Assembly (NCBI GenBank): GCA_947452995.1
Contig: CANGEV010000006.1
Coordinates: 62,001-126,000, forward strand
Length of the DNA stretch: 64,000 bases
From: Chitinophagales bacterium
GTDB lineage: Bacteria; Bacteroidota; Bacteroidia; Chitinophagales; CAIODY01
Direction: 5' to 3'
Position 1 is the stretch's first letter, and every line of letters starts with the position of its first letter. A program made the position numbers and the translations under genes. Positions 23,082-63,284 of this stretch are shown piece by piece. The notes below the pieces were generated by a model. The model saw only the letters and a list, made by a program, of their open reading frames with translations, was not told the origin of the DNA and ran no database searches.

Positions 23082-23123
23082 TGACTTTAGTCATTGTTCT
23101 TTATGCGAGGATTGCTTAACTTG
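23082..23123 (+). promoter_or_regulatory. FNR/CRP-type operator plus -7 element of the FIST operon
   Basis: A perfect palindrome TGAC-TTTA-GTCA (23082-23093) is followed after exactly 23 bp by TAACTTGT (23117-23124), a degenerate TAnnTTTG. The same operator and spacing occur upstream of ccoI, ccoS and the gene at 62913. The predicted transcription start near 23129 supports ATG 23139 rather than the two earlier candidate starts at 23094 and 23103. Confidence 0.65.
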
Positions 23124-49263: not shown

Positions 49264-50418
49264 TTATAAAGTTCCTCTTCGTGCTTGCTCAGCTTCGATA
49301 CTTTCAAACAATGCTTGGAAGTTACCTTTGCCAAACGACTTAGCACCTTTACGTTGAATAATTTCAAAGAAAATCGTCGGACGATCTTCGACTGGCTTCG
49401 TAAATATTTGAAGTAAATACCCTTCCTCGTCACGATCAACCATGATACCCCATTTCTTTAATTCTTCTAAGTCTTCTGCGATTTCACCAACACGATCTAC
49501 TACTGTATCGTAATAAGAGCCGGGCACATATAAGAATTCAACACCGCGCTTGCGCATTTCCGAAATTGTAAATACAATATCATCTGTCGCAACGGCTATA
49601 TGCTGACAGCCTGCCCCATGATAAAAATCTAAATACTCTTCGACCTGTGATTTTTTCTTTCCGGGAGCAGGTTCATTGATGGGAAACTTCACATAGCCAT
49701 TTCCATTCGTCATCACCTTACTCATTAAGGCCGTATATTCAGTTGAAATATCCTTATCATCAAACGTAACTAGATTAAAGAAGCCCATGGTCTCCGCATA
49801 AAATTTGCTCCATACATTCATCTCTCCAAGTCCGACATTACCGACCATGTGGTCGATATATTTCAAGCCTGTCCAGCCAGGATTGTACTCAGTTTTCCAA
49901 TCAACATAGCCGGGCATGAAAATACCTTTGTACTCTTTTCTTTCTACAAACACATGTACTGTATCGCCATACGTATGTATTCCAGACATTCGTATGATGC
50001 CATGCTCATCCTTAATTTCTTTCGGTTGCATATAGGCTCTTGCTCCGCGTTTGGTCGTTTGTTCGAATGCATCGTATGCGTCATTAACGCCTAGCGCAAT
50101 TACCTTGACACCATCACCATGCATACGAATGTGATGAGAAATTTCACTATCCGGATCCAACGGAGTAGTAAGTACCAAGCGTATCTTTCCTTGCTGTAAT
50201 ACATACGAAGTGCGATCTCTTGATCCTGTCTCTAAACCAGCGTAGGCAAGCTCTTGAAAACCGAAGGCCGTTTTATAATAATGTGCTGCTTGCTTCGCGT
50301 TGCCTACGTAAAGTTCTACGTAATCAGTTCCTAACAGGGGCAAGAAATCTTGTGCCGCTTGAAATATTTTTGTCGTTTCATTATAGTTGAAATTTTCAAC
50401 GTGTTTTAAATCTGACAT
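49264..50418 (-). CDS. hppD: 4-hydroxyphenylpyruvate dioxygenase
   Basis: From ATG 50418 (384 residues) the enzyme has the two vicinal-oxygen-chelate modules of HPPD. The iron ligands are in GLKYIDHMVGNV (His), GCQHIAVATDDI (His) and PTIFFEIIQRKG (Glu). It converts 4-hydroxyphenylpyruvate to homogentisate in tyrosine breakdown. An in-frame start at 50469 would lie inside the upstream gene and add a non-conserved extension, so ATG 50418 is preferred. It is 32 nt downstream of the homogentisate dioxygenase gene on the same strand. Confidence 0.97.
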   Translation of the reverse strand: MSDLKHVENFNYNETTKIFQAAQDFLPLLGTDYVELYVGNAKQAAHYYKTAFGFQELAYAGLETGSRDRTSYVLQQGKIRLVLTTPLDPDSEISHHIRMHGDGVKVIALGVNDAYDAFEQTTKRGARAYMQPKEIKDEHGIIRMSGIHTYGDTVHVFVERKEYKGIFMPGYVDWKTEYNPGWTGLKYIDHMVGNVGLGEMNVWSKFYAETMGFFNLVTFDDKDISTEYTALMSKVMTNGNGYVKFPINEPAPGKKKSQVEEYLDFYHGAGCQHIAVATDDIVFTISEMRKRGVEFLYVPGSYYDTVVDRVGEIAEDLEELKKWGIMVDRDEEGYLLQIFTKPVEDRPTIFFEIIQRKGAKSFGKGNFQALFESIEAEQARRGTL

Positions 50419-50450
50419 ATTTTTATATTTATTGAAAAAGAGTTTACTAA

Positions 50451-51614
50451 TTACTTGCCGCCAATCCAACTTTCGAAATAGGCTGTGATTTCCATGCCTA
50501 AAGCATCCTTCGTAATTTTAACAGGATTAAAAGGATCAATCATTACCGCTAATTCATTGGTTGCCTTTTGACCAATACTTCTTTCGATTGCCCCTGGATG
50601 TGGCCCGTGTGGAATACCGCCTGGATGTAAGGTTATTTGTCCTTTTTGAATATTATTGCGACTCATAAAATCACCATCCACATAATATAATAGTTCGTCA
50701 CTATCAATATTGCTATGATGATAAGGAGCTGGAATAGCGTCAGGATGGTAATCGTATAATCTTGGAACAAAAGAACATACCACAAAATTTTTGCCTTGGA
50801 ACGTTTGGTGTATTGGAGGAGGCATGTGAATGCGACCAGTTATTGGTTCGAAGTTGAAAATGGAGAACGCATAGGGATAACAACAACCATCATAGCCTAC
50901 CACATCAAACGGATGGTACTCATATACATAAGGGTATATCAATCCTCTCTTCTTTATTTTAATCACAAAATCCCCTTTCTCATCGATTGTCTGTAAGTTT
51001 TCAGGCAGACGCAAATCTCTTTCGCAGAAAGGTGCATGTTCTAAAAACTGACCATAATTATTGCGATATCTTGCAGGCGTCTCGATAGGCCCGAATGATT
51101 CTACCACTAACAAACGGTTTTGTTCAGTAGTGAATTCAATTTGGTAAACAGTTCCTCGAGGTACTATCAGGTAATCACCATAAGCGAATTTTAGTTCACC
51201 ATACGGACTCCGTAAAACACCACTCCCTTCGTGCACAAATAACATTTCATCCGCATCTGCATTTTTGAAGAAATAATCCTTCATCGATTTTTTTGGTGTG
51301 GCAATGCCAATACTTAAATCATCATTTACCATCATTATTTTTCTGCTCTCCAAATAATCATCGATAGGTGCTGCATTAAAGGTTAGATAACTGCGCGCCT
51401 GCAAATTGTCTTCAATGACTACTTCCGGACGAACTGAATATGCTTCGCCTTTTTGCTTAACAACCGTAGGTGGATGTAAGTGATAAACTAAGGATGAAAG
51501 ACCAGAAAAGCCCTCTGTACCAAACAATTCTTCATGATATAAATTTCCATTCTGCTGGCGAAATACAATATGTCTTTTTGCTGGGATATGTCCCACCTGA
51601 CGGTAAATAGGCAT
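50451..51614 (-). CDS. hmgA: Homogentisate 1,2-dioxygenase
   Basis: The 387-residue cupin enzyme has the family's N-terminal region (YRQVGHIPAKRHIVFRQ, EELFGTEGFSGLSSLVYHL) and the iron-site region (SNIDSDELLYYVDGDFMSR with Glu, and HPGGIPHGPHPGAIE with His). It is shorter than the eukaryotic enzyme (about 445 residues) but of usual size for the bacterial variant. It opens the homogentisate ring to maleylacetoacetate, the step after HppD. It is the first gene of the two-gene operon and divergent from ccoI. Confidence 0.95.
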   Translation of the reverse strand: MPIYRQVGHIPAKRHIVFRQQNGNLYHEELFGTEGFSGLSSLVYHLHPPTVVKQKGEAYSVRPEVVIEDNLQARSYLTFNAAPIDDYLESRKIMMVNDDLSIGIATPKKSMKDYFFKNADADEMLFVHEGSGVLRSPYGELKFAYGDYLIVPRGTVYQIEFTTEQNRLLVVESFGPIETPARYRNNYGQFLEHAPFCERDLRLPENLQTIDEKGDFVIKIKKRGLIYPYVYEYHPFDVVGYDGCCYPYAFSIFNFEPITGRIHMPPPIHQTFQGKNFVVCSFVPRLYDYHPDAIPAPYHHSNIDSDELLYYVDGDFMSRNNIQKGQITLHPGGIPHGPHPGAIERSIGQKATNELAVMIDPFNPVKITKDALGMEITAYFESWIGGK

Positions 51615-51683
51615 AGCAATTCAATTTCAACAAAGATGCTGCTAAACTTGTCATTGGATAATGAGTAGCGTCAAGTCCAAAAC

Positions 51684-51726
51684 TGATTTCCATCATATCA
51701 TTCATTTCTTAGTACGGCTAGTTTTG
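51684..51726 (+). promoter_or_regulatory. FNR/CRP-type operator plus -7 element of ccoI
   Basis: TGAT-TTCC-ATCA (51684-51695) is followed after exactly 23 bp by TAGTTTTG (51719-51726), an exact TAnnTTTG. If the operator is centred at -41.5, transcription starts at the A of the ATG (51731), giving a leaderless mRNA. The same spacing occurs at three other promoters in the window. Confidence 0.7.
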
Positions 51727-51730
51727 TTTC

Positions 51731-54139
51731 ATGCAAAAGAACACTATCCAAACTGAGTGTTATCATTGCCATGAAAAGTGTGACGAAACGGTTCAAATAG
51801 AGGGGAAATCGTTTTGTTGTGAAGGTTGTAAGCAGGTTTATCTCTTGTTGAGTGAGAATAATATGTGTTCTTACTACGACTTCGATAGTCAAGCAGGTAT
51901 CAGTGCGAAAGGTCGTTTTATCGATAAACGATTTGCCTATCTTGATACGCAAGAAGCCATTCAAAAATTAGCTACTTTTCGCAGTGATAATTTAATAAAT
52001 GTTACTTTTTATTTACCGCAAATGCATTGCGCATCCTGCGTGTATCTGCTCGAAAATCTGCATCGGATTAACACTGGTGTGATTAAGTCGCAGACGAACT
52101 TTCAGCGGAAAGAGATATTTGTATCCTTTAACCCGAGTTTGGTAAGTCTTCGTAAAATTGTAGAACTGCTAGCCTTTGTTGGTTATGAGCCGCAAATTTC
52201 CTTAGATGATGATCAGCAATTAAAGAAACCGGTTGCGAATAGCAAACAAATGATTTATAAAATCGGTGTTGCCGGATTCGCATTTGGTAATATCATGATG
52301 TTGAGTTTCCCTGATTATTTTTCAGGTGGAAATATTGATCAGCATACACTAAAGTTTGTCTTCGCTTATTTAAGTCTGACCCTGTCTATACCCGTACTTT
52401 TTTGGTCGGCCTCTGAATTTTTTATATCGGCTTGGAAGGGCCTGCGACAAGGAATCGTAAACATTGATGCGCCTATTGCACTTGCTTCTTTAATAACCTT
52501 TTCTCGATCCTATTATGAGATAATAAGTGGCATGGGTAATGGTTATCTCGACTCCGGCACAGGAATTATTTTCTTCATGCTAATCGGTCGTTGGTTTCAG
52601 CAAAAGACCTATGATTCCTTTTCATTTGAGCGCGACTATAAAGCCTATTTCCCGCTTGGTATTTCTCGGGTATTGTCAGACGATAGCGAAGAACAAAGTA
52701 TCATTTCTAATTTGAAAGTTGGTGATCATATTCGCGTCCGCAACGGAGAAATGGTTCCTGCAGATGCTACTTTACTTTCGGAGAAAGCATATATCGACTA
52801 TTCATTTATTAGTGGAGAAGAGCTTCCTGTAAGCGTTTCAAGAGAGTCTATCGTGTATGCAGGTGGAAAACAAGTCGGGGCCTCAATCGACCTTGAAATA
52901 AAACATGAGGTTTCCCAAAGCTATATCACGCAACTATGGAATAATACAGCCTTTCGAGAAAGCAAGAATAAAGAACAATCCTTCATTCATCCGTGGAGCC
53001 GTTATTTCACGCTTGTACTTTTCAGTATTGCACTGACGGCAAGTATATATTGGTATTTTCATGATCAACATGAAATGTGGCATGTACTCACATCAGTTCT
53101 AATCGTTGCTTGTCCCTGTACTTTATTATTGGCAGCTACATTCACCTTTGGTAATATGGTTCGTCATTTCGGGCGAAGTAAACTATATCTAAAAAATAAC
53201 GCAGTAATCGAATCAATGGCGAAAGTAAATACTATCGTCTTCGATAAAACAGGCACTTTGACAACCCATGAAAATGCATTAGTTGAATTTAAAGGACCAG
53301 CTTTGACTGCTCAACAATGGATAATTATTAAATCCATCGTTTCACATTCTTCGCATCCCTTAAGCAGAATGATTTTTAAAAGTATAGAATCCGATGAAAT
53401 TCAAATGCTGAATAGATTTGATGAAATTAAGGGGAAAGGTATTATCGCGATTGTTGACGGCCGTGAATGGCGGATTGGTTCGGCTAATTTTATTCTGGAT
53501 CAAGAAACAGAAACAGTTGTTAATACAACTTCGGTACATATTATGGCGGATGGAATTCACTTAGGGTACTTCGCTTTCAAAAATCGTTATCGCGAGCAAC
53601 TCACGAAAATGGTCGCTGCTCTAAAGAGTTCAAATTATGAATTGCATGTTTTATCAGGTGACAATAACAGTGAAAGAAATGTGATAGAAACAATCTTCGG
53701 TAAAGAAGCAAAAATTTTATTTAATCAAACTCCGCAAGATAAACTTGATTATATCGCAAATTTACAAAGTGAAGCTAAGCGAAATGTTATGATGTTAGGT
53801 GATGGCTTGAATGATGCGGGTGCTTTACGTCAAGCAAACGTAGGTATCGCTGTCACAGATCAAACAGGTCTCTTTACGCCTGCTTGTGATGCAATACTTG
53901 AAGGGCAGCAAATTGCCAATTTAGCGCTATTCTTACGCTATGCAAGAGAAGAAAAGTTAATTGTTGGAGCGAGCTTTGTGCTTTCAATCCTGTATAATAT
54001 CGTCGGTGAAGCATATGCCGTAACTGCCAACTTAAGTCCAATCGTTGCCGCAGTTTTAATGCCAATCAGTAGTATAAGTGTCATTGCTTTTGTCACAGCC
54101 CTTTCTACTTATCGTGCCAAACGCGTTGGACTTTCCTAA
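51731..54139 (+). CDS. ccoI: Copper-type P1B ATPase for cbb3 oxidase assembly (CcoI/FixI/CtpA-like)
   Basis: The 802-residue ATPase starts with a Cys-rich domain (CYHCHEKCD, CCEGCKQVY; residues 10-37) typical of CcoI/FixI. An HMA domain follows with MHCASCVYLL (C100, C103), then eight membrane segments with CPC in VACPCTLLLAATF (about 460), the phosphorylation motif DKTGTL (about 505) and GDGLNDAGAL (about 690). It should move copper to the periplasm for the CcoN active site. Its place before ccoSNOQP supports the CcoI role rather than general copper detoxification. No alternative start lies nearby. Confidence 0.93.
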   Translation: MQKNTIQTECYHCHEKCDETVQIEGKSFCCEGCKQVYLLLSENNMCSYYDFDSQAGISAKGRFIDKRFAYLDTQEAIQKLATFRSDNLINVTFYLPQMHCASCVYLLENLHRINTGVIKSQTNFQRKEIFVSFNPSLVSLRKIVELLAFVGYEPQISLDDDQQLKKPVANSKQMIYKIGVAGFAFGNIMMLSFPDYFSGGNIDQHTLKFVFAYLSLTLSIPVLFWSASEFFISAWKGLRQGIVNIDAPIALASLITFSRSYYEIISGMGNGYLDSGTGIIFFMLIGRWFQQKTYDSFSFERDYKAYFPLGISRVLSDDSEEQSIISNLKVGDHIRVRNGEMVPADATLLSEKAYIDYSFISGEELPVSVSRESIVYAGGKQVGASIDLEIKHEVSQSYITQLWNNTAFRESKNKEQSFIHPWSRYFTLVLFSIALTASIYWYFHDQHEMWHVLTSVLIVACPCTLLLAATFTFGNMVRHFGRSKLYLKNNAVIESMAKVNTIVFDKTGTLTTHENALVEFKGPALTAQQWIIIKSIVSHSSHPLSRMIFKSIESDEIQMLNRFDEIKGKGIIAIVDGREWRIGSANFILDQETETVVNTTSVHIMADGIHLGYFAFKNRYREQLTKMVAALKSSNYELHVLSGDNNSERNVIETIFGKEAKILFNQTPQDKLDYIANLQSEAKRNVMMLGDGLNDAGALRQANVGIAVTDQTGLFTPACDAILEGQQIANLALFLRYAREEKLIVGASFVLSILYNIVGEAYAVTANLSPIVAAVLMPISSISVIAFVTALSTYRAKRVGLS

Positions 54140-54164
54140 ACATGATCTAAGTCAGTTTTGCATT

Positions 54165-54207
54165 TGATGACTATCATTAAAATATAATTAGACGGCAATT
54201 AGTTTTG
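54165..54207 (+). promoter_or_regulatory. FNR/CRP-type operator plus -7 element of the ccoS-NO-Q-P operon
   Basis: TGAT-GACT-ATCA (54165-54176; TTGAT on the left side as in FNR boxes) is followed after exactly 23 bp by TAGTTTTG (54200-54207). The ccoS ATG is 22 nt beyond the -7 element. Geometry is identical to the ccoI promoter. Another TGA-N6-TCA element lies at about 54153-54164. Confidence 0.75.
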
Positions 54208-54229: not shown

Positions 54230-54391
54230 ATGAGTGTAATGTTATTATTAATCGGAGCAAGTATTCTCGTTGCTGTAGGCTTTTTACTAGCCTTTTTATG
54301 GAGCGTGAAGAATGGTCAATATGATGATGACTATACTCCATCAATTCGTATGTTATTCGATAATGAAAACTCAACTAATAATCATAATTAA
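54230..54391 (+). CDS. ccoS: cbb3 oxidase assembly protein CcoS
   Basis: This 53-residue protein has one membrane helix (LLLIGASILVAVGFLLAFLW) followed by SVKNGQYDDDYTPSIRMLF. The GQYDD element after the helix is the hallmark of CcoS. CcoS is needed for placing cofactors in CcoN. It is 6 nt upstream of ccoNO and is the first gene after the operator-promoter. Confidence 0.92.
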   Translation: MSVMLLLIGASILVAVGFLLAFLWSVKNGQYDDDYTPSIRMLFDNENSTNNHN

Positions 54392-54397
54392 ATCACT

Positions 54398-56557
54398 ATG
54401 TCACAAACAGGCACTTTAGAAGTGGAAAAGTTCAACTACGATAATAAGATCGTTAGGAACTTTGCATTCGCCTCCATCTTATGGGGCGCAGTCGGTATGC
54501 TGGCGGGTTTGTATGTAGCCCTACAGCTGGTGTTTCCCTCATTAAACATCACACAGTTTGGTTCTTTTGGTCGATTGCGTCCCTTACATACGAATGCTGT
54601 AATTTTTGCATTCGTAGGTAATGGCTTATTCATGGGTGTGTATTATTCATTACAGCGCTTATTGAAAACGCGAATGTGGAATGATACGCTTAGCCGTATT
54701 CACTTTTGGGGATGGCAATTAATTATCGTTGCTGCGGCTATTACTTTACCGCTAGGTATGACTTCAGGTAAAGAGTACGCTGAATTAGAATGGCCTATTG
54801 ATATTGCCATTGCCTTAATCTGGGTAGTGTTTGGTATAAATATGTTCGGTACGATTTTAACACGTCGTGAAAAACATTTGTACGTAGCAATCTGGTTCTA
54901 TATCGCGACATTCGTAACGGTAGCTGTTTTACATATTGTAAACTCTATGGAGTTGCCAATCAGCATGTTCAAATCCTATTCATTATATGCAGGTGTGCAA
55001 GATGCCTTAGTACAATGGTGGTACGGACATAATGCTGTTGCCTTCTTCTTGACAACACCTTATTTAGGAATTATGTATTTCTTCATTCCTAAAGCGGCTA
55101 ACCGTCCTGTTTACTCTTATCGTCTTTCTATCATTCACTTTTGGGCCTTGATCTTCTTATATATCTGGGCTGGTCCTCACCACTTATTGTACACTGCACT
55201 TCCTAACTGGGCACAGTCACTCGGTGTTGTATTTAGCTTTATGTTGATTTTCCCTTCATGGGGCGGTATGATTAACGGCTTGTTGACACTCCGTGGTGCT
55301 TGGGATCGTGTTCGTGAAGATGTTATTTTGAAGTTCTTCGTAGTAGCGGTTACTTGTTATGGTATGTCTACCTTCGAAGGTCCGATGTTGAGTTTGAAAA
55401 ATATCAATGCGATTGCACACTTCACAGATTGGATTATCGCACACGTACACATAGGTGCTTTAGGATGGAATGGTTTCTTGACATTCGGTGTTTTATATTG
55501 GATGTTACCTCGTATCTACGGTACAACCTTATATTCTAAAAAAGCAGCAAACTTACATTTCTGGATTGGAACATTGGGTATTATGTTCTATGCTATTCCA
55601 ATGTATTGGGCTGGTTTCACACAAAGTGAAATGTGGAAGCAATTCACTCCAGGTGGTCAATTACAGTACTCTTTCTTAGAAACTGTGAATCATTTACGTC
55701 CGTTCTACATGATGCGTTCCTTAGGAGGTACTTTATATATGATTGGTGTTTTGGTAATGGTTTGGAATTTATACAAAACTGTTAAGTCGGGTAAATTAAT
55801 TGCGGACGAAGCTGCTGAAGCTGCACCAATGGTGAAGGATTATCAGCCGCATGCTAGCGAATACTGGCATCGTGTAATTGAGCGTCGTCCGATTCAATTA
55901 TTGTTATTGAGCTTGGTGGTGATTTTGATTGGCGGATTGGTAGAGCTGGTTCCTACTTTTATGATTAAATCAAATATCCCTACAATTTCAAGTGTTAAGC
56001 CGTATACACCACTCGAATTAGAAGGTCGCGACATTTATATCCGTGAAGGTTGTTATGTGTGTCACTCTCAAATGGTACGTCCGTTCCGTAGTGAGACAGA
56101 ACGTTATGGTGAATATTCAAAAGCTGGTGAATTTGTATATGATCACCCATTCCAATGGGGAAGTAAACGTACCGGTCCGGACTTAGCGCGCGAAGGTGTT
56201 GGAAATAATAAGAAGTCCGATGGTTGGCACTTCCGTCACTTACGCGAGCCTTCATCTATGTCGGAAGGTTCTGTAATGCCTGCTTATGCGTTTATGATTG
56301 AAAAGTCACTAGATACGCGTAATCTCGAATCAAAAATAAATGCGATGCGTACCTTGGGTGTCCCTTATGCAGAAGGATATGAAAAGATTGCCTTGAAAGA
56401 CTTAGAAGCGCAAGCACAGCAAATCGCAGCCAATTTAAAAGCAGATAATATCGAAGTGAAAAGCGATCGTGAGGTTATCGCCTTGATTGCGTACTTGCAA
56501 CGTTTAGGTGTCGATATTACTAAAGAAAACAAAGCTGCAGAAGTAGCAGTAAAATAA
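54398..56557 (+). CDS. ccoNO: cbb3-type cytochrome c oxidase, fused subunits I and II (CcoNO)
   Basis: The 719-residue protein joins CcoN (about 1-465; 12 membrane helices; heme/copper histidines in LHTNAVIFAF, WWYGHNAVAFFLT and FTDWIIAHVHIGALGWNGF) to CcoO (about 490-719). CcoO here has one membrane anchor and the heme c motif CYVCHSQM near residue 550, with a methionine ligand probably in SVMPAYAFM. The fusion is common in Bacteroidota. It forms the catalytic core that reduces oxygen at low tension. The gene follows ccoS by 6 nt. Confidence 0.97.
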   Translation: MSQTGTLEVEKFNYDNKIVRNFAFASILWGAVGMLAGLYVALQLVFPSLNITQFGSFGRLRPLHTNAVIFAFVGNGLFMGVYYSLQRLLKTRMWNDTLSRIHFWGWQLIIVAAAITLPLGMTSGKEYAELEWPIDIAIALIWVVFGINMFGTILTRREKHLYVAIWFYIATFVTVAVLHIVNSMELPISMFKSYSLYAGVQDALVQWWYGHNAVAFFLTTPYLGIMYFFIPKAANRPVYSYRLSIIHFWALIFLYIWAGPHHLLYTALPNWAQSLGVVFSFMLIFPSWGGMINGLLTLRGAWDRVREDVILKFFVVAVTCYGMSTFEGPMLSLKNINAIAHFTDWIIAHVHIGALGWNGFLTFGVLYWMLPRIYGTTLYSKKAANLHFWIGTLGIMFYAIPMYWAGFTQSEMWKQFTPGGQLQYSFLETVNHLRPFYMMRSLGGTLYMIGVLVMVWNLYKTVKSGKLIADEAAEAAPMVKDYQPHASEYWHRVIERRPIQLLLLSLVVILIGGLVELVPTFMIKSNIPTISSVKPYTPLELEGRDIYIREGCYVCHSQMVRPFRSETERYGEYSKAGEFVYDHPFQWGSKRTGPDLAREGVGNNKKSDGWHFRHLREPSSMSEGSVMPAYAFMIEKSLDTRNLESKINAMRTLGVPYAEGYEKIALKDLEAQAQQIAANLKADNIEVKSDREVIALIAYLQRLGVDITKENKAAEVAVK

Positions 56558-56747: not shown

Positions 56748-57929
56748 ATGTTTAAAAATAAAATAAAATCATGGATGTTAATCGGAGTCCTAGTCTCTGG
56801 TTCTTTCATTGCTCAAGCTCAAAACGCGGCTCCGGTAGCAACCCCAGCAGCCGCAAGCCCAACTAACGACTTAATGCAGTTTTTCCTGCTTGCCATTATC
56901 ACCGTATTCGGAATTGTTATTTTTCGTATGACACAAGTTGTTGCCTTATTGTCCAAACAATTGATTGAAAAAGATAAGGCTAAGAGCACTAATAAAGTGA
57001 CTAGCATTATACTGTTATTTGCTGCGTTCGGTGTATTATCTAACGGTGCCTTTGCACAAGAAGCTACTACAGCTGCAGAATCTACTATTTCTTTTGCAGG
57101 AGTTTCTGGTGTAAATATGTATGTATTAGTAGCTGCGTTGGTAGTTGAAATATTCGCTATTTTTTATCTCGGTTCGCTCATTAACTCTTTGCACAAACGT
57201 GTCTTCGATATCAAAGTATTGGAAACTAAAGCAGTGAAGAAATCTTTATTGCCGTCATGGTGGCACGATTTAGACAAAAAAATCTTAACGCAAGCCGTTC
57301 CAGTTGAACGTGAAGCAGATGTATTGTTAGATCATGATTATGATGGAATCAAAGAATTAGATAACGCCTTACCACCTTGGTGGAAGTATGGATTCTATAT
57401 TACTATCGTAGTTGCGTTTATTTATATTATCGCTTATCATATAACTGGAACAGGTATGAATCCTACCCAAGAATACGCTGCACAAATGGAAGAAGCACGT
57501 CTTGCGAAAGAAAAATTTGATGCGGAAAATAAAGATAAAGTGGACGAAGCAAATGTGCCTATGGCCGATGCTTCAGGGATAGAAAAAGGTCGTGCAATCT
57601 TTAAAGAAAATTGTATCGCTTGTCATGGTCAACTTGGAGAAGGCGGTGCAGGACCTAACTTAACAGATAACTATTGGATACATAAAGGAAGTTTAAATGA
57701 TATTTATGCTTCCATTAAAAATGGTTATCCTGATAAGGGAATGCAGTCATGGATTATCAAATTCAATCCAAAAGAAATAAGTCAAATCGCATCATTTATT
57801 AAAACATTAAATGGCTCAAATCCTCCAGGCGCTAAAGCACCGCAAGGCGATTTGTTTGTAGAGGCTAGTCAAGATTCAACTTCGAACACCACATTGAAGG
57901 ATTCAGTGGTAGTGGCAAAACCACAATAA
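56748..57929 (+). CDS. ccoP: cbb3 oxidase subunit III, CcoP, with one heme c and a duplicated N-terminus
   Basis: The 393-residue protein has the FixP N-domain element DYDGIKELDNALPPWWKYGF, a membrane helix (about 210-232) and one cytochrome c domain with CIACH near residue 289 and its methionine in GYPDKGMQSW. Proteobacterial CcoP has two hemes; Bacteroidota forms commonly have one. The first 155 residues look like two copies of a signal-like helix, an Ala/Thr/Ser-rich stretch and a membrane helix (first ending LLSKQLIEKDK, second ending INSLHKRVFD). The two copies are only weakly alike in sequence. It passes electrons to CcoNO. Confidence 0.93.
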   Translation: MFKNKIKSWMLIGVLVSGSFIAQAQNAAPVATPAAASPTNDLMQFFLLAIITVFGIVIFRMTQVVALLSKQLIEKDKAKSTNKVTSIILLFAAFGVLSNGAFAQEATTAAESTISFAGVSGVNMYVLVAALVVEIFAIFYLGSLINSLHKRVFDIKVLETKAVKKSLLPSWWHDLDKKILTQAVPVEREADVLLDHDYDGIKELDNALPPWWKYGFYITIVVAFIYIIAYHITGTGMNPTQEYAAQMEEARLAKEKFDAENKDKVDEANVPMADASGIEKGRAIFKENCIACHGQLGEGGAGPNLTDNYWIHKGSLNDIYASIKNGYPDKGMQSWIIKFNPKEISQIASFIKTLNGSNPPGAKAPQGDLFVEASQDSTSNTTLKDSVVVAKPQ

Positions 57930-57994: not shown

Positions 57995-59419
57995 ATGTCT
58001 AATTCAACTTCGCAATTTGGTGCTAGCCCTGATCCAAAGGGGACTTTTAGGGATTCTGTCGCCACGATAGATAATGACGGCTCGCGTCACTATATCCATC
58101 CCAAAAAACCGAAGGGGAAATTGTATAATCGTAGAACGATGTTCAGCGTTTTTTATCTAACGCTCTTTCTTCTTATTCCTTTTATCAAGTGGCAAGGCGA
58201 ACCTCTTTTAATGTTGAATGTTCTCGAACGGAAATTCATCATCTTCGGCATGATATTTTGGCCGCAAGACTTTTTCATCTTCGGTATCGCAATGTTAACC
58301 TTCGTGGTTTTCATTACCCTATTTACAGTTGCATTCGGACGAATCTTTTGTGGATGGGCTTGCCCACAAACTATTTTCATGGAAATGGTATTTCGTAAAA
58401 TCGAATACCTCATCGATGGGGATTCAACAAAGCAGCAACAACTTCGCAAGATGCCTTGGAATAAAGAAAAAATCTTCAAGCGAATTTTGAAGTTTAAAGT
58501 TTTTTGGATTCTCTCCTTTATCATCGCAAACTATTTTACAGCCTACCTCACCGGCATGGATAACGTAATTTCCTATTACAAAGCACCAGGAGAACATGTC
58601 AAAAATTTTGTTTCATTAGCTGTATTTACCACTGTCTTTTTCTTTGTCTACTATTGGTTCCGTGAACAAGCGTGCATCGTCGTTTGTCCTTATGGTCGCT
58701 TACAAGGTGTGCTCCTCGATAAAAATACTATTATCGTTGCTTATGATAAAGTGCGCGGAGAACCGCGTGGTAAAGGGCCCTTAGCTGAAGGTCAATCACA
58801 TGGAGATTGTATAGATTGTAAAGCATGTGTTCGTGTTTGTCCAACAGGTATTGATATACGGAACGGCACGCAAATGGAATGTGTCAATTGTACAGCTTGT
58901 ATCGACGCTTGTAATGAAATCATGCATAGCATCGATAAACCCGAAGGCCTGATTCGTTATGCTTCTGAAAACTCGATTACAAAAGGAAAGCCACTTAAAT
59001 ACAATGCTCGACTAAAAGGTTATACTGCCGTATTGACTGTCCTTCTAGCTTTACTCATGACGCTCCTATTTACACGCTCTTCTGTCGATGTTACCTTGCT
59101 ACGTGTTTCTGGACTAAGCTATCAAAAAAATGCAGATAGCACCTATAGCAATTTGTATAACCTGAAGCTGGCAAATAAAACACATCATGACATAAAAATT
59201 GAAGTATTATGCGAAGATGTAGAAGGCAAAATTGTTCCTGTTGGAAGTAGTGATTGGATTGTGAAGCAGGGGAATTATGCTGTGATGGAATTCTTCTTGA
59301 AATTGAAACCAAACCAACTGAAGGGTTGGAAAACTATAGTGCGTTTACGAGTTAATGGGGACGGCCAAAAGCTGAAAATCGTAAAGGCAAAGTTTATCGG
59401 CCCGGATGTTTATAATTAA
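57995..59419 (+). CDS. ccoG: cbb3 oxidase accessory protein CcoG (FixG-like ferredoxin-type membrane protein)
   Basis: The 474-residue protein has four or five membrane helices, CGWACPQTIFMEMVFRKIEY, a 2x[4Fe-4S] ferredoxin domain near 270-305 (CIDCKACVRVCPTGID and CVNCTACIDACNE), another helix and a C-terminal Ig-like domain. CcoG/FixG is a copper reductase and assembly factor for the cbb3 oxidase. It starts 65 nt after ccoP and is probably in the same transcript, since no terminator or promoter was recognised between them. Confidence 0.95.
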   Translation: MSNSTSQFGASPDPKGTFRDSVATIDNDGSRHYIHPKKPKGKLYNRRTMFSVFYLTLFLLIPFIKWQGEPLLMLNVLERKFIIFGMIFWPQDFFIFGIAMLTFVVFITLFTVAFGRIFCGWACPQTIFMEMVFRKIEYLIDGDSTKQQQLRKMPWNKEKIFKRILKFKVFWILSFIIANYFTAYLTGMDNVISYYKAPGEHVKNFVSLAVFTTVFFFVYYWFREQACIVVCPYGRLQGVLLDKNTIIVAYDKVRGEPRGKGPLAEGQSHGDCIDCKACVRVCPTGIDIRNGTQMECVNCTACIDACNEIMHSIDKPEGLIRYASENSITKGKPLKYNARLKGYTAVLTVLLALLMTLLFTRSSVDVTLLRVSGLSYQKNADSTYSNLYNLKLANKTHHDIKIEVLCEDVEGKIVPVGSSDWIVKQGNYAVMEFFLKLKPNQLKGWKTIVRLRVNGDGQKLKIVKAKFIGPDVYN

Positions 59420-59430
59420 CACATACACTT

Positions 59431-59862
59431 ATGAATTGGGGAGCTAAAATCGCAATCGTTTATTGCACTTTCGCTGCCGGCATTGGCTACATGGCTTTTC
59501 GAGCCGCTAACCAAAATTTTGATCTGGTAACACCAGATTATTATGCCGAAGAATTGAAACATCAATCTCGAATTGATGCCGTTAATAATGCAAACGCATT
59601 ATCCACCGGACTTCGTTATCATATCTCATCTGAAAAAATACAAGTTGTATTTCCAAAGGAATGTGTCGGTAAAGATCTTCATGGCGTAATGAAATTGTAT
59701 TGCCCTTCCGATGCAAAAAAAGACTTGCAACGTTCCTTTACCCTTGCTGATTATAATTACGTATTTCTTATTCCAAAGGATACGGAAGGCTCGCGTGAAA
59801 TACAAATCACTTGGTATGCAGCGGGCAAAGAATTTTATTATTCTAAAAAAGTAATTTTCTAA
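59431..59862 (+). CDS. ccoH: FixH/CcoH family cbb3 oxidase assembly protein
   Basis: The 143-residue protein has one N-terminal membrane helix (WGAKIAIVYCTFAAGIGYMA) and then FDLVTPDYYAEELKHQSRID, the family signature of FixH. The rest is a beta-rich periplasmic domain. It is needed for stable assembly of the oxidase. It lies 11 nt after ccoG and 2 nt before the SafE-like gene. Confidence 0.93.
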   Translation: MNWGAKIAIVYCTFAAGIGYMAFRAANQNFDLVTPDYYAEELKHQSRIDAVNNANALSTGLRYHISSEKIQVVFPKECVGKDLHGVMKLYCPSDAKKDLQRSFTLADYNYVFLIPKDTEGSREIQITWYAAGKEFYYSKKVIF

Positions 59863-59864
59863 AA

Positions 59865-60584
59865 ATGTCTTGGCTCACGTTGTCTCCAGCACTAATAATC
59901 GGTTTGTTGGGGAGCCTCCATTGCGTTGGTATGTGCGGCCCCTTAGTATTGCTATTACCCATTCAACAGCAAAACGCTTATAAAAGAGCATTTGCCGCTT
60001 TATTATATGCTATTGGTAAAGCAATAACATATGCGTTCTTTGGAATCATTTTCGGTTTAATAGGCCAAAGTTTCGTAGCCTTTGGTTGGCAACAAGCACT
60101 GTCAATTACTATTGGTGTATTGATGTTGTTGGCGGGTCTTATTAATTTATTACAAGTAAGGTCGATAACACTTGAAGTTAAATTATCAAATGCCTTTGCC
60201 TTTATAAGAAATGCCCTTTCAAAGTCTATTCGAAAAGAAGGAATATCCTCACTTTTCCTTTTTGGTATGTTAAATGGTTTATTGCCTTGCGGATTAGTTT
60301 ATACTGCCGCTGCAGCCTCCATCGAAACTGGCTCTACCATAAATGGCGCATTGTTCATGTTTCTTTTTGGCTTGGGTACATTACCCATGATGTGGAGCGT
60401 TATTTTATTTGGAGCTACCATCCAAACACGCTTTCGGAATCAGTTGAAACGTATCATTCCCATTACCTTATTGTTGATGGGTACTTTATTATTACTGCGT
60501 GGGTTAGGACTTGGAATTCCATATCTGAGTCCGAAAGTTAATGTAGAAAAGAAGCATATGGATTGTTGTCATCCTGATGAATGA
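59865..60584 (+). CDS. SafE/TauE-like cytochrome-biogenesis membrane protein
   Basis: The 239-residue protein has six membrane segments and SLHCVGMCGPLVLLLP at the start, the Cys-x3-Cys signature of the DsbD-like/UreH-like family that accompanies cbb3 oxidase genes in many bacteria. The second half has GMLNGLLPCGLVYTAAA. The C-terminus is KKHMDCCHPDE, with a CCH element that could bind copper. It probably helps with copper supply or cytochrome maturation. It is 2 nt downstream of ccoH. Confidence 0.87.
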   Translation: MSWLTLSPALIIGLLGSLHCVGMCGPLVLLLPIQQQNAYKRAFAALLYAIGKAITYAFFGIIFGLIGQSFVAFGWQQALSITIGVLMLLAGLINLLQVRSITLEVKLSNAFAFIRNALSKSIRKEGISSLFLFGMLNGLLPCGLVYTAAAASIETGSTINGALFMFLFGLGTLPMMWSVILFGATIQTRFRNQLKRIIPITLLLMGTLLLLRGLGLGIPYLSPKVNVEKKHMDCCHPDE

Positions 60585-60614: not shown

Positions 60615-61790
60615 ATGGATGCTACAGAAGCTCTCTTTCAATACGCTACAGAAGGTATTTTGGTGGTTAATCGAATCGGACAAATCGTTCGCGCTAATCC
60701 TAGTGCAGAAAGAATGTTTGGCTATGCTAAAGGAGAATTATTACACCTTACCATTGAACATTTAATTCCTGAAGCAATTCGTTCACAACATCAAAAACAT
60801 CGCGAGGGCTTTAATGACAATCCGCATCCACGTTCGATGGGAATGAATATGCAATTAAGCGCCTTGCGAAAAGATAATATTACATTCCCGGTTGAGGTTA
60901 GTCTATCTCCCTATAATACTGCAGAAGGACCAATGGTCATTGCTTTTTTAATTGATATCTCTATTCGTAAAATAGCAGAAGATCAATTGAAAAATTATAA
61001 TGTAGAATTAGAGCGACAAGTGAAGAAGCGCACACTCATACTTCGCGAAGCAATTGATCAATTAGAAAAGACTAAACTGGAATTAAATAACGCGCTGGAA
61101 AAGGAACGCGAATTGAATGAGATGAAATCTCGCTTCGTTAGTATGGCATCACATGAGTTCAGAACCCCTTTAGCAACGATACTTTCATCACTTTCCTTGG
61201 TTACGAAATACGGTGAGATTAATGAGAAAGAAAAGCAATCCGTGCATATCAACAAAATAAAATCGTCCGTGAATAACCTTACGGATATTTTAAATGATGT
61301 GCTTTCTGTTAGCAAATTAGACGAAGGTAAAGTAAGTTTTCATCCCGAATTTTTTGATCTATTCGTCTTTATTGAAGAGTGTATTTCCGACTTACAACCT
61401 ATTGCAAAAGAAGGGCAGTTGATTCAATTTGATCATGCGGGTAATAATGAAATCAACTTCGATAAAAAATTGCTGAAACATATCCTCTTTAATTTAGTCT
61501 CTAACGCTATCAAATTTTCTCCTGAAGGAAAACCAATTCAAGTAAAGGTTAAGGTGAATAAGAAAAATTGGACCTTAAGCGTGAAAGACCATGGAATAGG
61601 CATTCCAAAGTCGGATCAGAAACACTTATTTGAACGTTTTCATCGTGGTAAAAACGTTACGAATATTCAAGGTACAGGACTTGGCTTAAATATCGTAGCA
61701 CGAATAACTGAAATGCTCGAAGGTAAAATAAGTTATGAGACCAAAGAAAACGCCGGCACACTATTCACATTATCATTTCCTATAGTATGA
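60615..61790 (+). CDS. PAS-domain sensor histidine kinase of the cbb3 cluster
   Basis: The 391-residue soluble kinase has a PAS domain (about 5-120) of the FixL-like subgroup, with IPEAIRSQHQKHREGF, where H59 aligns with the FixL heme ligand. A coiled coil, HisKA with H180 (SMASHEFRTPLATI) and HATPase (ILFNLVSNAIKFS, DHGIGIPKSDQKHLFERF, GTGLGLNIVARI) follow. The FixL arginine near the heme is not conserved, and many heme-free PAS domains share this histidine. Its stop overlaps the REC-CRP regulator by 4 nt, so the two are a cognate pair. Confidence 0.92.
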   Translation: MDATEALFQYATEGILVVNRIGQIVRANPSAERMFGYAKGELLHLTIEHLIPEAIRSQHQKHREGFNDNPHPRSMGMNMQLSALRKDNITFPVEVSLSPYNTAEGPMVIAFLIDISIRKIAEDQLKNYNVELERQVKKRTLILREAIDQLEKTKLELNNALEKERELNEMKSRFVSMASHEFRTPLATILSSLSLVTKYGEINEKEKQSVHINKIKSSVNNLTDILNDVLSVSKLDEGKVSFHPEFFDLFVFIEECISDLQPIAKEGQLIQFDHAGNNEINFDKKLLKHILFNLVSNAIKFSPEGKPIQVKVKVNKKNWTLSVKDHGIGIPKSDQKHLFERFHRGKNVTNIQGTGLGLNIVARITEMLEGKISYETKENAGTLFTLSFPIV

Positions 61791-62830
61791 AAAAAATTGT
61801 TTTAATAGAAGACAATAAAGACATGCGCGAAAATATCGCAGAAATTTTGGAGCTATCCAATTACAAGGTCTTTCCTGCACCTAATGGAAAGAAAGGAGTA
61901 GAGTTAGTTCAGAAGGAAAAACCAGATTTAATTATCTGTGATATTATGATGCCAGTTCTCGATGGATACGGTGTTTTACATATTCTTTCTAAAAGTGAAG
62001 ACACGGCCTCTATCCCTTTTATTTTTCTTACCGCAAAGGCTGAACGAAGCGAACTCCGCAAGGGAATGGAAATGGGAGCAGATGATTACGTGACGAAGCC
62101 TTTCGATGATATCGAGTTGTTGAATGCAATCGAAAGCCGTCTCCGAAAAGCAGAAGCGATGAAGAAAGCAGCCGCTGCCACGATAGATAACTTGATGCAG
62201 AACTTTAGTGGGGCAGATGCTATGAAGCAATTGACGGAAAGTGATGAGCAATTGCAGATTAAAAAGAAAGAGACTATTTACAAAGAAGGAGCTTATCCTC
62301 GTGGCGTATATTTTGTAAAAGAAGGGAAGATTAAAACCTTCAAAAAACATGAAATAGGAAAAGAGTTTATTACGGGCCTACATAGCGCAGGTGAGTTTTT
62401 TGGCTATACATCTTTATTGGAAGGTGTTAAATATACCGACACCGCCGAAGCCTTAGAAAATTCGATTATCACTTTTATTCCACAAGACGTGTTTTTCGAC
62501 CTGCTCTACAAAAATGCAGATATCGCTAAAAGCTTTATTCAAATACTTTCTGGCAACTTAACCGAACAAGAAGAACGACTAATGAACCTTGCCTACTCTT
62601 CCGTTCGTAAACGCCTTTCAGATACCTTAGTTAACCTTTATGAAAAACATTCTGCCGATAAAAATCATACCCTGACTTTCTCTCGCGAAGACTTGGCAAA
62701 TATCGCTGGAACGGCTATCGAGACTACTATTCGCACACTCAGTGATTTTAAATCGGAAGGACTAATTGAAATCAAAGGCACTGCCATTCAGGTTATCAAA
62801 TTGGATAAGCTGAAAGCAATGCGTAACTGA
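61787..62830 (+). CDS. Response regulator: REC domain fused to CRP/FNR-type cNMP-binding and HTH domains
   Basis: The 347-residue protein has a REC domain (acidic pocket EDN, phospho-acceptor D52 in CDIMMPVLDG, K104), a linker, a cyclic-nucleotide-type beta-roll (about 155-245) and a crp HTH (about 292-345). In the recognition helix TAIETTIRTLSDF, E312 and R316 take the places of the FNR/CRP residues that read the TGA core; the FNR serine is isoleucine. The only cysteine is C51, so it cannot carry an FNR iron-sulphur cluster. It probably responds through phosphorylation by the PAS kinase and is the best candidate to bind the four TGAY-N4-RTCA sites. Confidence 0.92.
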   Translation: MKKIVLIEDNKDMRENIAEILELSNYKVFPAPNGKKGVELVQKEKPDLIICDIMMPVLDGYGVLHILSKSEDTASIPFIFLTAKAERSELRKGMEMGADDYVTKPFDDIELLNAIESRLRKAEAMKKAAAATIDNLMQNFSGADAMKQLTESDEQLQIKKKETIYKEGAYPRGVYFVKEGKIKTFKKHEIGKEFITGLHSAGEFFGYTSLLEGVKYTDTAEALENSIITFIPQDVFFDLLYKNADIAKSFIQILSGNLTEQEERLMNLAYSSVRKRLSDTLVNLYEKHSADKNHTLTFSREDLANIAGTAIETTIRTLSDFKSEGLIEIKGTAIQVIKLDKLKAMRN

Positions 62831-62849
62831 CGAGCATCAGTTTTTATCT

Positions 62850-62892
62850 TGACCTAAGTCTGCAATACACGTTACAATCTAAGCTATCTTTG
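62850..62892 (+). promoter_or_regulatory. FNR/CRP-type operator plus -7 element of the gene at 62913
   Basis: TGAC-CTAA-GTCT (62850-62861, 5 of 6 half-site bases ideal) is followed after exactly 23 bp by TATCTTTG (62885-62892), an exact TAnnTTTG. The ATG is 20 nt further on. Confidence 0.65.
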
Positions 62893-62912: not shown

Positions 62913-63284
62913 ATGCTATCGAAATCAGGAAAAGAATTATTACTGGAAGATTCTATGACACTCGCTGAAATTCAACATGAATTCAGTAACCTTTTCCCGT
63001 ATTTGAAATTGGAGTTTTATTCGATGCGAAATCCCTTGAAAAATACATTCAATAGCACCTTTCTTACTAAAACACTGAATGATTTTCGTAAAAGATCTAA
63101 ATCAGAAGATTTGAATATCTCTCCTGATATGAGCGTAACCACCTTGGAGCATAACTTTCAAGTGATATTTGATTTGAATGTACAAGTATATCGGAAGTCA
63201 GGTAAATCATGGCTGGAAACTTCTGCAACAGGAGAATGGACACTCTTTGAACAGAATGCTGAAGGGGAAGCCCTTGGTGAGTAA
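62913..63284 (+). CDS. Uncharacterised small protein of the predicted FNR-like regulon
   Basis: The 123-residue soluble protein shows no motif I recognise. It has SMTLAEIQHEFSNLFPYLKLEFY near the N-terminus and SVTTLEHNFQVIFDLNVQVYR in the middle, which may be two related helix-strand units, and ends with ATGEWTLFEQNAEGE. Its promoter has the same operator geometry as the ccoI and ccoS promoters, so it is probably made under the same conditions as the cbb3 oxidase. It is convergent with the DUF1801 gene (1 nt gap). Function unknown. Confidence 0.7.
   Translation: MLSKSGKELLLEDSMTLAEIQHEFSNLFPYLKLEFYSMRNPLKNTFNSTFLTKTLNDFRKRSKSEDLNISPDMSVTTLEHNFQVIFDLNVQVYRKSGKSWLETSATGEWTLFEQNAEGEALGE

Follow-up and report, generated by a model that had tools for sequence, protein, structure and literature searches.

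The 64,000-nucleotide stretch of Chitinophagales DNA analysed in our study, hereafter the window, carries a run of genes for a cbb3 oxidase, followed by a histidine kinase gene and by the gene of a response regulator in which a receiver is fused to a CRP/FNR-type DNA-binding protein (REC-CRP); this kinase/regulator pair is the subject of our analysis. All of these genes, and the domains and residues located below, lie on the + strand. The run comprises a CcoI-type metal P-type ATPase (51731..54139, from Pfam and NCBIfam searches), ccoS (54230..54391; TIGR00847 over cut-off), a ccoNO fusion of oxidase subunits I/II (54398..56557; NF011053, TIGR00780 and TIGR00781 over cut-off), ccoP (56748..57929), named by its place between ccoNO and ccoG with no family search, ccoG (57995..59419; TIGR02745 over cut-off), a ccoH-like gene (59431-59862), also named by place, and a DsbD_2-family gene (59865-60584), which ends 30 nucleotides 5' of the kinase gene. 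The kinase (60615..61790, 391 amino acids) has three Pfam domains over cut-offs: PAS (residues 5-115), HisKA (170-238) and HATPase_c (283-389). Its frame shares four nucleotides (61787-61790) with that of the regulator (61787..62830, 347 amino acids), an overlap already reported in the first-pass annotation of this DNA. Beyond the regulator, an open reading frame (62913..63284) encodes a conserved protein of 123 amino acids with no Pfam match.

Relatives of the regulator are encoded in at least 581 stretches of named bacterial contigs; the best 80 of these, which are of full or nearly full length, share 53-63% identity and are almost all titled Bacteroidota, were used together with the window's own locus, giving the 81 loci referred to below. 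The exceptions among the titles are one contig named Bifidobacterium breve (L041), which carries a Bacteroidota-type pair and is probably a wrongly named bin, and one named "uncultured bacterium". A similar kinase is encoded immediately 5' of the regulator in 77 of the 81 loci, as is expected of a response regulator with its cognate kinase, and the -4 overlap is the most frequent spacing between the two frames (16/77 loci). A relative of the 123-residue protein is found near the pair in 55/81 loci.

The regulator consists of a receiver domain (residues 1-116, 61787..62134; Response_reg at 4-116), a cNMP_binding domain (157-240, 68.6 bits) and a CRP/FNR-type winged helix (276-345, 62612..62821; HTH_Crp_2, 54.4 bits), all over the Pfam cut-offs, so that the direct joining of the two parts seen in the first-pass annotation is borne out, and the presence of both cNMP_binding and HTH_Crp domains places the protein in the CRP/FNR superfamily. 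In the receiver, D9, the phospho-acceptor D52 (61940-61942) and K104 are invariant in 81/81 regulators, and T82 is kept in 79, the other two having Ser. In the recognition helix, E312 (62720-62722), I315 and R316 (62732-62734) are invariant in 81/81, which includes the Glu and Arg said earlier to be kept. With these residues invariant in both parts, the regulator looks like an intact, working receiver on an FNR-type DNA-reading head. It has exactly one cysteine, C51 (61937-61939), which stands beside D52 in the receiver and is invariant in 81/81; the cysteines of an FNR cluster are lacking from the whole protein, as had been claimed, but the word "cysteine-free" used for it at first is not literal.

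No named family of NCBIfam or PADLOC scores over its cut-off for the fusion. In NCBIfam, the receiver part matches PhoB (TIGR02154) best, and the FixK model gives 79.1 bits against a cut-off of 300; because of its fused receiver, the regulator can be called FixK-like at most. Among the 60 listed of 330 PDB matches in a sequence search, none spans both the receiver and the CRP parts. A fold search with a model of the full regulator (predicted local distance difference test, pLDDT, 78.0; predicted template modelling score, pTM, 0.41) was filled by receiver domains and was uninformative on the fusion.

The full-length fusion was identified in 75 of 149 genomes drawn from the same single class (match lists were ordered by E-value), in 74 of them as one frame and in one as a split frame. 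That full-length relatives occupy the best 80 of the confirmed matches shows that the arrangement is no chance event, and the fusion represents a widespread Bacteroidota family. In a tree of 62 rows, made up of 28 of the 81 regulators, 31 FNR-like proteins and three plain ones (one of which duplicates an FNR-like row), a branch with a Shimodaira-Hasegawa-like approximate likelihood ratio (SH-aLRT) support of 99 separates the REC-CRP proteins from the rest, which is consistent with the fusion having arisen once. Plasmids of Hymenobacter, Spirosoma and Runella carry a few of the copies, annotated there as "response regulator" or "transcriptional regulator".

The sensor end of the pair was compared with PAS domains of solved structure. 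Residues 1-127 of the kinase (60615..60995) form a FixL/DosP/FG214-like PAS domain, for which the AlphaFold2 (AF2) prediction has a pLDDT of 92.9 and the nearest solved structures are haem PAS domains. Its top PDB sequence matches are FG214, FixL and DosP, and each of the 14 distinct PDB sequences that a profile of 51 PAS domains matches at E<=1e-12 belongs to FG214, DosP or FixL (the regulator alignment holds 36 of the 81 regulators). The nearest fold is the FG214 haem PAS (Z 18.0, root mean square deviation 1.6, 113 residues), and FixL and DosP come next, for the most part with Z values of 15-16.5; the first flavin LOV domains appear at about 15.4, and the fold alone is therefore not decisive. 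A gapless alignment, placed by spacing, sets His59 (60789-60791) on FG214 His156 and Met75 (60837-60839) on FG214 Met172. According to the FG214 report (PMC13060918), His156 is the proximal haem ligand, Met172 is an alternative ligand that takes the distal place in one crystal form, and the protein is a redox-responsive bis-His/His-Met haem switch. Of the 77 adjoining kinases, three are gapped at the His59 stretch and two (L056, L057) have no such PAS there, which leaves 72; His59 is present in 72/72 and Met75 in 69/72, and both are present in 20/20 readable kinases of ccoN-linked pairs. A Tyr at position 59 in L056 and L057 was set aside, as the upstream protein is aligned there with what we read as a REC-like stretch and not with a PAS. 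From this comparison, the kinase PAS most likely binds haem through His59, and Met75 is a possible distal ligand. Several loci (L047, L048, L057) have an additional kinase 5' of the pair, with a PAS that belongs to this subfamily as well.

Three promoters of the window combine an operator of the form TGAYN4RTCA (TGA[CT]N4[AG]TCA; extended, approximately aaacaTGAY-N4-RTCAtgttt) with TAnnTTTG, the Bacteroidota -7 box, at fixed distances on the + strand. Before ccoI, the operator TGATTTCCATCA (51684..51695) lies exactly 35 bases from the -7 box TAGTTTTG at 51719 and has a weaker, degenerate tandem partner at 51662. Before ccoS-ccoNO, operator 1, TGATCTAAGTCA (54143..54154), lies 57 bases 5' of the -7 box TAGTTTTG (54200..54207), and operator 2, TGATGACTATCA (54165..54176), follows operator 1 by 22 bases and stands 35 bases ahead of the same box. 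The third promoter belongs to the open reading frame at 62913: its operator TGACGAGCATCA (62828..62839) extends across the regulator's stop codon, 57 bases before the -7 box TATCTTTG at 62885, and has a tandem partner, TGACCTAAGTCT, with one mismatch at 62850. The four operators of the first-pass annotation (51684, 54143, 54165 and 62828) are therefore present, together with the weaker partners at 51662 and 62850. Two other site forms were rejected: TTGA-N6-TCAA has 64 matches in the window against 56.8 expected and thus gives no signal, whereas TGAYN4RTCA, tried next in the regions 5' of homologous genes, did separate the sites; TTGAC-N4-GTCAA has three exact sites genome-wide, and the genes beside them are not clearly linked to respiration.

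It is important to consider that the form of the motif was chosen after the window's sites had been seen; the independent tests are the relatives and the spacing to the -7 box. In the regions 5' of homologous genes of the 81 loci, compared with shuffles that preserve base content and not dinucleotides, the operator precedes ccoNO in 21/21 (shuffle mean 0.5), ccoI in 13/22 (0.6), the kinase gene in 44/75 (2.4) and copies of the 62913 family in 33/58 (1.7). It is not above chance 5' of ccoP (1/18), ccoG (0/10), ccoH (0/6), dsbD2 (0/6) or the regulator gene itself (4/81, 2.4 expected). Pairs of operators exactly 22 bases apart occur in 7/21 ccoNO, 19/60 further ccoN and 11/78 kinase regions, and every other spacing in these lists occurs once. 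Over the 80 loci (1.13 Mb, 638 site-strands), the distance from operator start to TAnnTTTG is 35 bases in 50 cases and 57 bases in 73, against a mean of 0.7 and a maximum of five (at 58) for the 106 other distances; neither the 22-base pairing nor the -7 spacing had been sought in advance. In the window's whole genome, the only two exact matches to the 57-base arrangement are those before ccoS-ccoNO and at 62828. The 123-residue protein encoded at 62913 is, by its neighbourhood and its operator in relatives, likely a member of the regulon. Among 96 promoters of relatives with this geometry, 12 precede genes that we presume from sequence appearance to be DoxX-like, four UspA-like and three Hsp20-like, targets that are in keeping with a low-oxygen regulon.

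Several further sites were observed. Only two 22-base operators without mismatch exist in the whole genome, one with its core at 54143 before ccoS-ccoNO and the other (L182, G000:C20:39007) between pckA-like and iscS-like genes, before the latter; the second, which lacks a -7 box at either of the two distances (35 and 57 bases), hints that iron-sulphur assembly may be controlled. At L203 (G000:C12:34073), an operator exactly 35 bases from a -7 box precedes a gene for a flavin adenine dinucleotide (FAD)-dependent monooxygenase-like protein, whose product likely uses O2, and a FIST-domain gene (L208) elsewhere also has an operator site. In the window, an operator-like site at 23082-23093, with no match at the fixed -7 distances, lies close behind the 18061-23079 gene; the gene that comes next is succeeded by genes for a PAS kinase and two receiver proteins. 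The ccoI operator shares its intergenic region with a divergent homogentisate-dioxygenase-like (HmgA-like) gene, followed by an HPPD-like gene (together 49264-51614), both enzymes presumably requiring O2; a one-mismatch 57-base operator/-7 match also faces this divergent gene.

In the 149 genomes, cbb3 (ccoNO) was identified in 82, the fusion in 75 and both in 55 (Fisher p 7.5e-6). The proximity of the fusion to cbb3 genes, which the first-pass annotation had suggested looking for in other genomes, was found: in 18/55 genomes, no more than 15 kb separate the fusion from ccoN, against about 0.5 expected. The fusion was also compared with FNR-like proteins. These are represented in the window's genome, which has three HTH_Crp_2 proteins over cut-off: the fusion, a 213-residue protein near a rhodanese-like gene and a 234-residue protein. 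The last has C11, C14, C23 and C113 and the Glu/Arg recognition pair; we call it FNR-like on the strength of these cluster cysteines and this pair, its score with the NCBIfam Fnr model being below the cut-off (104.3 of 228 bits). In its family (n=31), C11, C14 and C113 are present in 31/31, C23 in 22/31, and E198 and R202 in 31/31. An FNR-like protein (E<=1e-45) occurs in 23/27 cbb3 genomes without the fusion against 18/55 with it (p 1.3e-5); under a looser rule the latter count is 22/55 (p 1.2e-4), and a test on family majorities shows a less marked avoidance (p 0.02). Within families, eight pairs of genomes differ in both proteins, all in the same direction and none in the opposite one (five families; pairs share members). 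The FNR-like gene lies within 15 kb of ccoN in 10/27 fusion-less and 3/55 fusion-bearing cbb3 genomes, and in a hand count of the 82 cbb3 genomes it was never near ccoN together with a ccoN-linked fusion.

The operator does not follow this exchange. In the upstream regions of ccoN available from 27/27 fusion-less and 33/55 fusion-bearing cbb3 genomes, it is present in 21/27 and 32/33, respectively, and it is kept in 21/21 examined genomes that bear the fusion and lack an FNR-like protein (18/18 under the looser rule). The site is the same in both groups, so it is the site that is constant and the adjacent protein that alternates, which argues that the REC-CRP regulator reads the ccoN site where the FNR-like protein is missing. 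In its general form, that the Bacteroidia cbb3 promoter has a fixed operator and geometry whose reader alternates between an FNR-like iron-sulphur sensor and a regulator of the REC-FNR type driven by a haem kinase, this proposal seems to us evenly poised between right and wrong.

For the window, we favour as the probable reading a two-component low-oxygen switch of a FixL-like haem kinase and an FNR-like response regulator, that is, the FixL-FixJ-FixK cascade collapsed into two proteins. From the observed domains, conserved residues, sites, geometry, cbb3 association and FNR avoidance, we infer the haem, the signal, the direction of the response, the phosphotransfer, the DNA binding and the operon structure. 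The PAS domain would bind haem through His59, possibly with Met75 as distal ligand; a fall in O2 or reduction of the haem would activate the kinase, which would phosphorylate D52 of the regulator, and phosphorylation would favour a CRP-type dimer. This dimer may bind TGAYN4RTCA and recruit RNA polymerase from 35 and 57 bases upstream of TAnnTTTG (about -41.5 and -63.5), and transcription of ccoI, ccoS-ccoNO and the 62913 open reading frame would rise. Class II and tandem CRP/FNR activators act from such promoter positions. Activation at low O2, and not at high, is suggested by the role of the cbb3 oxidase and by the practice of FNR. Because the cbb3 run of the window closes with the pair, the ccoS-ccoN promoter would increase the supply of its own regulators as well.

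In Bradyrhizobium and Sinorhizobium, FixL is a haem PAS kinase, FixJ a phosphorylated receiver protein, and FixK a CRP/FNR protein acting at fixNOQP promoters. The window's pair shares with this cascade a PAS-type sensor resembling that of a haem kinase, a receiver suited to phosphorylation and a CRP/FNR-family protein at cbb3 promoters, and it differs in that the functions of FixJ and FixK would reside in one protein and in that the kinase has a single PAS domain. The collapse proposed in the first-pass annotation is well supported by our comparison of sensor, receiver, operators, geometry and FNR avoidance, in which the likeness to haem PAS domains, the fixed promoter spacing and the exchange with FNR are new additions. 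With E. coli FNR and the FNR-like proteins of Bacteroidota, the regulator has in common the CRP/FNR fold, the Glu/Arg pair, TGA-N6-TCA sites and cbb3 promoters; unlike them it has no cluster cysteines, and a receiver takes the place of the N-terminal cysteine region. Its receiver resembles those of OmpR/PhoB-type response regulators, whereas its output is a cNMP fold with a CRP-type winged helix. The sensor resembles the haem PAS of DosP, with the proximal His in register, although DosP is a phosphodiesterase. The closest solved PAS is that of FG214 of Fimbriimonas ginsengisoli (10jx), with which the proximal His and an M-G motif align; FG214 (PMC13060918) is a one-component HTH-PAS protein with a distal His175, whereas the window's protein is a kinase with N78 at that place.

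Several observations weigh against this switch, and they feed three alternatives. In the first, the pair regulates the same promoters and the PAS input is not O2 but redox state, nitric oxide, CO or haem supply, or there is no haem at all; we regard this as possible, with a clearly smaller chance than the low-oxygen switch. The position of Arg220 of B. japonicum FixL is not conserved (M79 here; the commonest residues among 74 relatives are Met in 23, Arg in 12, Leu in 11 and Ile in 9), and neither is that of DosP Met95 among the relatives' kinases (a Met in the window); both points speak against an exact copy of O2 sensing by FixL. Met77 had been considered as a distal ligand like DosP Met95 and was rejected, its position not being conserved and Met75, at the place of FG214 Met172, being so. 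His59 is also present in 6/8 other PAS matches within the same loci, so it marks a PAS subfamily and is no proof of haem, and the nearest relative, FG214, is described as responding to redox (PMC13060918). The targets, on the other hand, point to low oxygen, namely the cbb3 oxidase and, in relatives, UspA- and DoxX-like genes, and so does the swap with an FNR-like protein. A further point against the switch is the kinase gene, directly 5' of which we found no operator within the window; if the run is one transcript, the kinase would be controlled from the ccoS-ccoN promoter.

The second alternative concerns the window's genome, where the iron-sulphur FNR-like protein (C1:113136-113837) may control the TGAYN4RTCA sites and the REC-CRP regulator may have only an accessory part at them, by modulating, by competing or by serving other signals; we consider this unlikely, with less in its favour than a non-O2 input. 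The protein has the four cysteines listed above and the same Glu/Arg pair, cbb3 genomes with only an FNR-like protein have the same operator in 19/23 and a similar geometry, and in fusion-less genomes the FNR-like gene is found near ccoN at the frequency given above. FNR-type genomes have an identical operator, and the bound protein can therefore not be told from the site. Against this alternative, the FNR-like gene of the window's genome is found on a different contig, with thioredoxin and CoA-transferase genes as neighbours and no operator 5' of it, whereas the fusion adjoins the cbb3 genes; moreover, 37/55 fusion-bearing cbb3 genomes have no FNR-like protein at E<=1e-45 (33 under the looser rule), and the operator remains. 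The suggestion of the first-pass annotation that the pair replaces FNR fits many relatives and is not supported in that form for the window's genome, which encodes a separate FNR-like protein and so comes close to the refuting condition set in that annotation; with both proteins present, sequence cannot decide which of them occupies the sites.

The third alternative, that REC-CRP proteins serve as general regulators, varied in input and in target, whose cbb3 neighbourhood here is incidental, is very improbable: it draws on the 20/75 fusion genomes without cbb3, on the several genomes with two or more copies and on the two loci whose upstream protein has no such PAS at the His59 stretch, but the linkage to ccoN and the operator and promoter geometry common to ccoN, ccoI and the kinase gene go against it. 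These exceptions do indicate, together with the 27/82 cbb3 genomes without the fusion, that the fusion is neither dedicated to cbb3 nor required for it, and that its family has other duties.

In the open-licence PubMed Central (PMC) literature, we found no description of the function of the fusion, although surveys listing receiver-Crp architectures may exist, nor one of low-oxygen sensing for cbb3 induction in most Bacteroidota. Control of cbb3 by a haem-type kinase and its receiver/FNR partner appears to operate in many members of this group, and in relatives this pair often seems to stand in the place of the usual iron-sulphur FNR. If the low-oxygen switch is correct, the three-protein relay of FixL, FixJ and FixK would have a simple alternative in a receiver-FNR fusion controlled by a haem-type kinase, for which the conserved operators are ready reporters. 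If the alternation of readers holds as well, one cis-element would take its input interchangeably from an oxygen sensor of one component or from a haem relay of two, and the swaps within families would constitute a natural test of input replacement under a fixed output promoter.

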